Origin: Aneurinibacillus soli
GTDB lineage: Bacteria > Bacillota > Bacilli > Aneurinibacillales > Aneurinibacillaceae
Direction of reading: 5' to 3'
NCBI RefSeq assembly: GCF_002355375.1
Contig: NZ_AP017312.1
Coordinates: 3,322,001-3,386,000, forward strand
DNA: 64,000 nt
The notes beneath the pieces were generated by a model. That model searched no databases. It saw only the letters and a program-made list of their open reading frames with translations, and was not told the origin of the DNA. This document shows, piece by piece, positions 46,491 through 48,384 of this stretch. Numbering within the stretch: the first letter of the stretch is position 1; each line of letters opens with the position of its first letter. The position numbers and the translations under genes were made by a program.

Positions 46491-47555
46491 TTATTTCTGC
46501 CCAAACAAACGGCGCAAGTTTTCCGTATACGGTGCACGGACGATTCCTTTCTCCGTAATAACAGCCGTCACATATTCATTTGGCGTTACATCAAACGCGG
46601 GATTATACACTTTAATATCAGCCGGTGCTACCTGGCGTCCAAGACCGCGAATGATTTCATCCGCTTCACGCTCTTCAATCGGGATTTGCTCTCCGGTCGG
46701 AGTGCCAAGATCAATCGAAGATAGAGGAGCTGCCACATAAAATGGGATGTTGTGCGCTTTTGCAAGCACCGCAAGTCCGTATGTGCCGATTTTATTTGCT
46801 ACGTCGCCGTTTGCCGCCACGCGGTCTGTGCCGACAATGACCGCCTGCACCCAGCCATTGCCCATTACTTTTGCCGCCATATTATCACAAATAAGCGTTA
46901 CATCAATACCGGCCTGCTGCAACTCATACGCAGTAAGGCGCGCACCCTGTAGCACCGGGCGTGTCTCATCCGCAAAGACCTTCAGCCTCCATCCCTTTTC
47001 ATGCGCAAGATACATCGGCGCCGTTGCTGTACCGTATTTTGCTGTCGCAAGCCCACCAGCGTTGCAGTGGGTTAGCACACCCATGCCATCTTCGAACAAC
47101 GTAAGCGCATACTCTCCGATTGAGCGGCATACTTCTTCATCTTCTTTCTGAATGCGCTGCGCTTCTGTCAGCAACATCTCTTTCATCTGTTCCGGTGTCT
47201 GACCTTCCGCCTGTGCCCGCCGAGCAGTAGCTGTCATACGATCGAGCGCCCAGAACAAATTAACAGCTGTCGGGCGAGACGTAGCGAGATACGCCGCCTG
47301 CTTTTTCACTTCTTCAAGCAGTGCTTCAGATGTTTCTGCTTCGCTCTTACGCACCGCCACATACACGCCATACGCTGCGGTAATGCCGATCGCCGGTGCG
47401 CCACGTACATTCAGACGTTCGATCGCATCCCACACCTGCTTGACCGTTGTAAGCGTCATATAATCTGTTGTTTCCGGAAGCTTCGTCTGATCAAGCAGAA
47501 CAAGCTCTCCATTCTCCCATTTGACCGACTGAAGCGGTTCGTATGTTTTGGGCAT
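46491..47555 (-). CDS. mtnA: 5-methylthioribose-1-phosphate isomerase
   Basis: 354 residues. Family blocks [34 protein letters not shown] (catalytic Cys), [19 protein letters not shown] (catalytic Asp) and [12 protein letters not shown] are present. It converts methylthioribose-1-phosphate to methylthioribulose-1-phosphate in methionine salvage. ATG 47555 is favoured by spacing from AGGAGGG; ATG 47561 is too close. No other salvage gene is adjacent, and no SAM riboswitch is visible in the 228 bp upstream. Confidence 0.95.
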
Positions 47556-47673
47556 AATCATTCCCCCTCCTGTATGCTGGCTTCTCATCTCTCCATATAA
47601 GCACCACGTTTGACGAACATGTGTAAAATATGGAATAAAACTGACAAAAACGGGTAAACTACTATCAAGTATA

Positions 47674-47694
47674 CTAGATGCAAATTACATCTAG
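47674..47694. promoter_or_regulatory. Inverted repeat upstream of a small ORF promoter
   Basis: CTAGATG-CAAATTA-CATCTAG, 7-bp arms and a 7-bp centre, just before the -35 at 47702. Candidate regulator site. Confidence 0.5.
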
Positions 47695-47701
47695 ATGAAA
47701 A

Positions 47702-47744
47702 TTGTTGGTAGTCACACTGCCGGTTTATACTCACCCTGAGTATA
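47702..47744 (+). promoter_or_regulatory. Promoter with perfect palindromic operator for a 28-residue ORF
   Basis: TTGTTG (47702-47707), 18 bp, TATACT (47726-47731). The -10 is the left part of the perfect inverted repeat TATACTCACCCTGAGTATA (47726-47744), which also covers the expected transcript start. Confidence 0.6.
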
Positions 47745-47783
47745 CGTCGATATAAACCAGACTGCAAGAAAGGAGGAGATCCC

Positions 47784-47870
47784 ATGACTCAAGCAGAATG
47801 GAATGAATGGATTTTCCCAAGTGTATACGAAATCACACACATCATTGCAGAGGCAGTTGAAAGAGCATAG
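47784..47870 (+). CDS. 28-residue small protein
   Basis: M-T-Q-A-E-W-N-E-W-I-F-P-S-V-Y-E-I-T-H-I-I-A-E-A and four further residues (VERA). I recognise no family. It has an optimal ribosome site (AAAGGAGG, 8 nt before ATG), a promoter with a palindromic operator 50 bp upstream and a strong terminator 18 bp after the stop, so it is a complete small transcription unit. Two Trp and an acidic, amphipathic helical pattern are visible, with no signal peptide. It stands between the divergent mtnA and convergent phaJ. Whether it acts as protein, leader or sRNA is open. Confidence 0.65.
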   Translation: MTQAEWNEWIFPSVYEITHIIAEAVERA

Positions 47871-47885
47871 AAGAATCATCTATCC

Positions 47886-47928
47886 AAAAAGAGGCCCTCT
47901 CGTACAGTAACGAGAGAGCCTCTTCTTC
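47886..47928. terminator. Bidirectional terminator of small ORF and phaJ
   Basis: AAGAGGCCCTCTCGT and ACGAGAGAGCCTCTT form a stem (47889-47924) with one mismatch, with A and T runs on either side. Confidence 0.85.
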
Positions 47929-47940
47929 TTGCCTGTATAG

Positions 47941-48384
47941 CTATTCCATTTTCATTACCATCGCTTCGCCTTCTACTACAACTTTACCATTGCTATTCAG
48001 CACGTTTGTCTGGAGCTTAATCAGCTTTTTATCATCGCGCTTCTCGAGCACTTCCGCAACTACCGTAATCGTATCGCCAATTTTAACAGGTGCTTTAAAC
48101 TTCAAGTTTTGCGACAAATAAATCGTATTTGTCCCTGGCAACTGCGTCCCTAGTATCGTAGAGATATAACTCGCTGTCAGCATACCATGCGCAATACGCC
48201 CTTTAAAAAACGTCGTCTTGGCAAATTCATCATCCAGATGAATCGGATTCACATCGCCGGTCAGCTCCGCAAATGCCACAATATCTTGGTCTTCAATTGT
48301 CCGTACAAGCTCCGCTTTATCTCCTACATGAATGTCCGCATATGACTTTTCGACTACGTTTTTTGATTGTTCGTATATATTCAT
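47941..48384 (-). CDS. phaJ: (R)-specific enoyl-CoA hydratase (MaoC-like)
   Basis: 147 residues, single hot-dog fold. The hydratase-2 motif is present: TGDVNPIHLDDEFAKTTFFKGRIAHGML with catalytic Asp and His (about 44-49). It makes (R)-3-hydroxyacyl-CoA from beta-oxidation enoyl-CoA for PHA synthesis, or serves other acyl-CoA steps. Next to phaP/Q/R/B/C, which supports the name PhaJ. Ribosome site AAGGAGAGG. Confidence 0.88.
   Translation of the reverse strand: MNIYEQSKNVVEKSYADIHVGDKAELVRTIEDQDIVAFAELTGDVNPIHLDDEFAKTTFFKGRIAHGMLTASYISTILGTQLPGTNTIYLSQNLKFKAPVKIGDTITVVAEVLEKRDDKKLIKLQTNVLNSNGKVVVEGEAMVMKME

Follow-up and report, generated by a model that had tools for sequence, protein, structure and literature searches.

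A 28-codon gene conserved in Aneurinibacillaceae with a core resembling that of the phage protein family phrog_4157

Introduction

A 28-codon open reading frame lies between mtnA and a group of PHA genes in Aneurinibacillus soli, and the question raised by this locus is whether so short a frame encodes a protein, from which signals it would be expressed and to what it is related. The window, that is, the whole 64-kb stretch of DNA that was analysed, belongs to a genome (G000) that is a single contig of 4.12 Mb. A conserved chromosomal gene of 28 codons is easily overlooked, and the phage relation of its product, described below, is not visible from the sequence alone.

Organization of the locus

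The following features were located at and around the frame.

47784-47870, plus strand: microprotein gene, MTQAEWNEWIFPSVYEITHIIAEAVERA, 28 codons, ATG at 47784 to TAG at 47870
47769-47776, plus strand: ribosome binding site, AAAGGAGG
46491-47588, minus strand: mtnA, divergent neighbour (NCBIfam salvage_mtnA)
47941-48384, minus strand: MaoC-type (phaJ-like) gene, convergent neighbour
47886-47927, either strand: terminator hairpin from folding, between the frame and the convergent phaJ-like gene, possibly bidirectional

A preliminary description of this DNA had reported a complete small unit with a ribosome site and 28 codons, preceded by an inverted repeat, and both were found as described. 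The phaJ-like gene is followed by phaP and phaQ and then by phaR on the plus strand. A direct search of the window's genome returned the frame as one copy. Its peptide gave no family match in Pfam and NCBIfam, is acidic and mildly amphipathic (mean hydrophobicity -0.03, moment 0.31, residues 12-28) and has no transmembrane stretch as judged by eye. The size of the peptide and its strong ribosome site would suit the toxin of a type I toxin-antitoxin system or a membrane-active stress peptide. A type I toxin, however, is a hydrophobic membrane-spanning peptide, and with a mean hydrophobicity near zero, a single copy in the genome and no antitoxin RNA recognised by Rfam such a role is very improbable.

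Conservation and coding capacity

A six-frame protein search detected orthologues in 10 of the 11 Aneurinibacillaceae genomes, with a length of 25-33 residues and an AAGGAG-type ribosome binding site in every case (10/10). Alignment of these orthologues revealed that M1 (TTG in G007, written as M in A2 and A4), W6, W9, P12, S13, V14, Y15 and T18 are invariant; the consensus is MxxxEWxEWEFPSVYEITRxIAEAKE, and the N-terminal (E/D)Wx(E/D)WxxPS segment is constant in the bacterial orthologues.

The codon test, which covered codons 2-24, indicated that invariant columns occur at 11/23 first, 13/23 second and 2/23 third positions. The pN/pS ratio was 0.297, as compared with a mean of 0.87 in column-permuted alignments, none of which (0/300) was as low, and the conservation of the frame is far beyond chance. 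The preliminary description had proposed such a ratio as a check and had named an unconserved frame in relatives together with a missing transcript as the result that would speak against the gene; the ratio and the conserved frame both favour it. The frame is almost certainly a real protein-coding gene, and the codon pattern indicates that its amino acid sequence is under purifying selection. The microprotein is apparently old and vertically inherited in the Aneurinibacillaceae beside the mtn genes, and it may act as the small regulator that had been suggested.

Gene neighbourhood and terminator

Neighbouring genes other than mtnA and the pha genes of the window were named by eye. The mtn genes adjoin the frame in nine of the ten species. 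The divergent neighbour is mtnA without an aldolase gene in G000, G006 and G009, and a class II aldolase gene followed by mtnA in G001-G005; in G007 the aldolase gene before mtnA is reduced to a shortened remnant, and in G008 the divergent neighbour is an AarF/UbiB-like gene. On the other side, the earlier observation that the frame adjoins PHA genes is true of the window, but the phaJ-like gene is the direct convergent neighbour in only three of the ten loci (G000, G005 and G006). The gene lies further along in G007, G008 and G009, and a chemotaxis-like gene is found in G001-G004. In these seven loci a small cysteine-containing ORF comes first (from sequence in G001 and G007; after a same-strand ORF in G008). 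This convergent ORF, with an EYVG.C..C...YCHDGFIGG.V-like sequence, was seen in L004, L007, L008, L012 and L010.

Folding of positions 47880-47935 gave -22.8 kcal/mol (z -5.0). The hairpin of the terminator in the preliminary description is thus present, yet the simple scan does not list a terminator there. A strong hairpin, with a sequence differing from locus to locus, was found in nine of the ten orthologues (-16 to -38.5 kcal/mol); G008, in which a same-strand ORF of 51 residues lies downstream, has only an imperfect one. The possibility of a leader peptide or attenuator was rejected, the window having a terminator and then a convergent gene and a strong hairpin being present in 9/10 loci; G008 with its same-strand ORF departs from this.

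Relationship to phage proteins

Comparison of the orthologues with the 23-position PHROG profile phrog_4157 showed that 5/10 matched at E<=0.001 (best 1.9e-6), 7/10 at E<=0.05 and 9/10 at E<=0.2, with no match for G009 and a poor one for G008. The window's peptide matched with E 0.009, residues 13-24 aligning to positions 8-19 of 23. The profile match is therefore found for the orthologue family and is weak for the window's own copy. A six-frame search of 299 Bacilli genomes with the same profile at E<=0.001 returned seven matches in six genomes, all Aneurinibacillaceae, four of which are the ORF, and none in 14 control genomes; at E<=1 it matched 10 of the 11 family genomes but also 3 of the 14 controls.

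The reverse comparison used a profile of the chromosomal orthologues alone and 10,095 ORFs from 32 viral loci, of which 29 had been picked by the motif pattern and three by tblastn. Phage microproteins, 28 in number, ranked first with E 6.7e-7 to 1.3e-4, the best value of the reversed profile being 0.39. The back-translated core pattern had been found on 29 viral contigs. A free-standing ORF of 19-26 residues with a start and a ribosome site was present on 25 of these contigs, several being closely related to one another, and the matches of L070, L073, L075 and L077 were taken as chance. The pN/pS ratio of the phage microproteins (28 loci, 23 distinct sequences) was 0.18, a value with a downward bias, as an amino acid pattern had served to select most of the loci.

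Members read from the phage records are Troll, BM15 gp209 and CM1. The 20-residue gp209 of Bacillus phage BM15, MVSNLVYEITKLIAEHKEGK, shares the core and lies in a phage gene cluster; an unannotated 23-residue ORF of phage Troll, MSVENNVYEITKLLAEYKEGKGK, shares it as well and lies downstream of a sigma factor gene. Half of the phage loci (14/28) carry a gene for dUTPase, a thioredoxin-like protein, thymidylate synthase, dihydrofolate reductase or pyrophosphohydrolase within about 1 kb, and in 5/28 a sigma factor gene lies about 300 bases upstream, which makes 19/28 with one or the other; neither gene type occurs in the DNA examined for 9/28, little upstream DNA being available in some. Many of the phage loci are closely related to one another.

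The core VYEITxxIAE of the microprotein thus resembles that of phage proteins of about 20-26 residues, phrog_4157. Both share the core VYE[IV]T[KR]xx[AST]E, a tiny free-standing ORF and its own ribosome site. The bacterial gene differs in being chromosomal, in lying beside mtn genes in nine of ten species and in having its own terminator, and its product carries the constant N-terminal segment where the phage proteins usually have a short ENG/NN segment. Since it occupies this chromosomal locus with mtn beside it, the ORF is regarded as a bacterial relative and not as a member of the phage family.

The relationship depends on profiles and on a core of about 12 residues, because tblastn found nothing at E<=10, either with the G003 orthologue against phages and plasmids or with a 39-residue copy from G010 against phages. 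A separate profile, phrog_34556 (112 positions), was compared with the ORF upstream of the microprotein in L079 and has the appearance of phrog_7384, a phage protein of 63 residues, fused to the microprotein; in some phages the peptide may accordingly form the end of a longer protein.

Distribution and additional copies

The joint profile A4 was built from eight of the ten chromosomal orthologues (G005 and G006 were left out; the G008 and G009 rows were cut at the C-terminus) and one other copy each from G007, G008, G009 and G010, which are found by construction because they are included in the profile. It detected a member in all 11 family genomes, including G005 and G006, which are absent from it. 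In 387 other Bacilli the same profile gave at E<=0.01 one match (G078), inside a 342-residue frame, which was judged to be chance, and in a draw of 398 genomes from the phylum the matches were that of G000 and a partial one within a frame of 201 residues. Partial matches in 20 genomes outside the family (E 6e-4 to 0.047) were dismissed as chance; the one inspected, L027, lies inside a 342-residue frame and is the one that the joint profile kept.

The microprotein ORF was not found beside mtnA in G010, which has two other copies. The first, of 39 residues, is near a gene that is tepA-like by eye and behind GACTAA-N13-GGGTAA; it was modelled as one helix (residues 6-38, pLDDT 94), lone helices being easily predicted with confidence. 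The second, MEKVENPIYEITRIITKWREKEEKK (25 residues; L024, G010:C252:15643-15705), comes immediately after the gene of a CoA-transferase subunit, scoB-like by eye, and a hairpin was seen by eye after it. Additional copies were detected in G001, G007, G008 (two) and G009; in G001 and G009 they lie among phage-type genes.

In G001 (L099:1315-1560, minus strand) the motif NGTYEATNLLAEW is found at the N-terminus of a protein of 81 residues whose gene lies among phage-type genes; the rest of this protein matched SH3 very weakly (Pfam SH3_1, E 0.92), and the structure prediction of the fusion (pLDDT 46) was not usable. Pfam and NCBIfam searches with four members returned no family, the sole exception being an NCBIfam match with E 0.14 to the 39-residue copy. 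Matches to PDB sequences (best E 0.78 for the chromosomal profile, 0.13 for the joint profile) were taken as chance.

Two origins of the shared core were considered. Unrelated peptides may have arrived independently at one short helical motif for docking, perhaps on a common target: the core has only about 12 residues, the N-termini differ completely, and the motif is N-terminal in the 81-residue protein and, by profile, C-terminal in phrog_34556. The core is nevertheless near identical (VYEIT[RK]LIAEAK in G003 and phage members), which makes common descent simpler. Convergence therefore appears unlikely, and the microprotein and the phage family probably share an ancestor, judging from this core and the profiles.

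Upstream region of the gene

The region between mtnA and the frame contains the following elements.

47633-47657, plus strand: proposed promoter of the microprotein gene, SigB/SigF/SigG type, GAATAA (47633-47638), 13-base spacer, GGGTAA (47652-47657)
47674-47694, either strand: inverted repeat CTAGATG-N7-CATCTAG, directly downstream of the proposed promoter
47726-47744, either strand: 19-bp palindrome, TATACTCACCCTGAGTATA
47739-47767, minus strand: probable mtnA promoter, TTGCAG (47767-47762), 17-base spacer, TATACT (47744-47739)

The promoter placed before the frame in the preliminary description was not recovered, a simple scan of the plus strand at 47600-47800 finding no sigma-A promoter. 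Alignment of the orthologous loci revealed GAATAA, a spacer of 13 or 14 bases and GGGTA[A/T/G] in nine of the ten, and GGTTAA-N14-GGGTAT in the tenth, G008. The promoter is proposed from this conservation and from its resemblance to the SigB consensus GTTTAA-N15(+/-2)-GGGTAT (PMC9847131), to which the window's site corresponds at 4/6 (GAATAA) and 5/6 (GGGTAA) positions with a spacer of N13. The pattern is not enriched genome-wide, with 24 sites as against 36 in the reversed control at up to two mismatches. The use of this pattern to find a regulon was rejected; one of the 17 sites inspected was the ORF's own and most others lie inside genes.

The promoters of SigF and SigG have a consensus similar to the GTTTAA-GGGTAT pattern of the SigB type. 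No SigB-like factor was found in G000, G006 and G010; eight family members have one (about 245-257 bits to Sigma_B), and the SigB cut-off was exceeded in none of the 11 genomes. SigF and SigG are encoded in the window's genome, and because a SigB-like factor is missing there, recognition of the promoter would fall to one of these two. We give even odds to GAATAA-N13-GGGTAA, about 130 bases upstream, being a SigB/F/G-type promoter of the ORF.

The inverted repeat is kept as TAnnTG-N7-CAnnTA in all ten loci, with one mismatched pair within the six-pair core in G008. In the alignment 87% of the cells are paired and seven cells are changed on both sides, a value reached by 11 of 500 shuffles; the observed values of the other four measures were reached by 12, 21, 48 and 82 of 500, so that the support from shuffling is modest. 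The repeat may form a hairpin in the RNA or serve as an operator. The search for a consensus RNA structure gave nothing convincing on the plus strand, which is no test of the repeat because the alignment began inside it in several rows, and only the 7-pair repeat on the minus strand. Rfam at its gathering score returned RNase P and two tRNAs in the window, none of them near the ORF, and a riboswitch or other known RNA under the leader was rejected; below threshold there were six matches near the ORF, the best with 22.7 bits against a cut-off of 43.

The well-conserved leader with its paired repeat, and a transcript that would be short and end at its own terminator, would also fit a dual-function or purely regulatory RNA that acts by base pairing and in which the ORF is incidental. 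The Rfam result stands against this, and the same core is encoded in phages amid quite different DNA. As the constraint is at the amino acid level, a reading by RNA only is weakened further, and we give a regulatory RNA of either kind a small chance of being right.

The palindrome had been described as covering both the -10 region and the start of the gene. A 19-bp palindrome is present, without a second exact match in the genome, but it does not lie over the start codon because its end is 39 bases before the ATG. Palindromes with arms of 8 and a spacer of 0-3 occur seven times in the 64-kb window (six distinct places, one counted twice) and two to ten times in each of ten Markov sequences; by itself the palindrome is not beyond chance.

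As to the -10 region, the strictly conserved part under the palindrome, TGAGTATACGTYG...ACTGCAAG, is TTGCAG-N17-TATACT read on the minus strand and was found in all nine loci with a divergent mtn gene, although the -35 hexamer matches only 3/6 of the consensus. The motif is absent from the mtnA loci of G008, G010, G013 and G014, where mtnA follows another frame (by eye), and a looser scan (spacer 15-19, TATANT) gave one further match, L032, with other spacing. The G008 locus, with its other neighbour, is without the block and keeps the ORF, the ribosome site, the upstream repeat and GGGTAT. Since all nine mtn loci have the block and G008 keeps the ORF without it, the block was assigned to the mtn promoter, the comparison with G008 being one natural experiment and not proof. 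The conserved DNA around the palindrome is best interpreted as a minus-strand promoter of the divergent mtn genes, and the palindrome would overlap the -10 region of that promoter and not one of the ORF.

The preliminary model, in which the gene is repressed through the palindrome as an operator over its own -10 region, agrees with the perfect palindrome in the window's genome, with the arms ACTCA/TGAGT intact in seven of the nine loci that have the block, and with a small hairpin formed by the palindrome as RNA (z -2.35). The spacing of the arms, however, varies by two bases (3 bases in two loci, 1 base in five) and two of the nine loci, G004 and G009, lack an intact left arm, unlike a dimer site of fixed spacing. 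The whole block is lost in G008 while the ORF stays, the minus-strand promoter accounts for the conserved part, and palindromes of such size arise by chance at the observed rate. This control of the gene is improbable; the partly conserved arms have a possible role as an operator, perhaps for mtn.

Discussion

The reading that best explains the locus as a whole, with a probability of about 0.6, is a microprotein under purifying selection that has a phage-like core, a SigB/F/G-type promoter and a helix docking on a conserved host protein. The ORF would be transcribed from GAATAA-N13-GGGTAA, which would place the inverted repeat close to the 5' end of the transcript. The product would be a short helix that modulates a conserved bacterial protein by docking on it. 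In phages the same helix, often encoded within nucleotide-metabolism clusters or behind a sigma factor gene, would address this target in the course of infection. The bacterial copy would add the N-terminal (E/D)Wx(E/D)WxxPS and be made under the stress or forespore control of the cell. Docking on a target common to phage and host is a tentative part of this scheme, somewhat short of even odds, and the genes around the phage copies give a weak hint of nucleotide supply or transcription.

The proposed principle, a tiny protein docking on a host protein, is that of phage proteins with known targets, namely Gp7 of Bacillus phage GIL01 (LexA), Gp0.4 of T7 (FtsZ) and Aqs1 (LasR) (PMC11323111). They are likened to the microprotein by principle and not by sequence comparison. 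Within Bacillus, SpoVM, MciZ and Sda are very short sporulation-controlled proteins that dock on a partner; this likeness is by description, the sporulation control of the microprotein being suggested by the promoter-like pattern only. A further and rather doubtful extension is that Bacillales phages and one bacterial family steer the same target with a portable helix of about 12 residues, which may stand by itself or form the head or tail of other proteins. The bacterial copy would then be a phage effector that was domesticated and placed under forespore or stress control, and it would possibly compete with incoming phage peptides.

We know of no function for the phage proteins of phrog_4157. 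A literature search for the core strings and the PHROG name returned no paper, and no description of the chromosomal form or of the phrog_4157 family was found in the portions of the literature that could be consulted. The phage family is already contained in PHROGs; what is new is the chromosomal relative, at one place across the bacterial family and with an N-terminal segment of its own. Such a relative opens a way to the target in the host for which infection is not needed, and if the target is shared it would name a bacterial protein that about 20 residues can steer.

In three phage types, membrane-type proteins of 48-58 residues lie directly upstream of the microprotein (L071:1091-1237, L074:216-392 and L072:1755-1931). 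One of these upstream proteins gave a weak Sie-like superinfection exclusion match (E 0.0011), and another matched a membrane protein family (9.9e-39).
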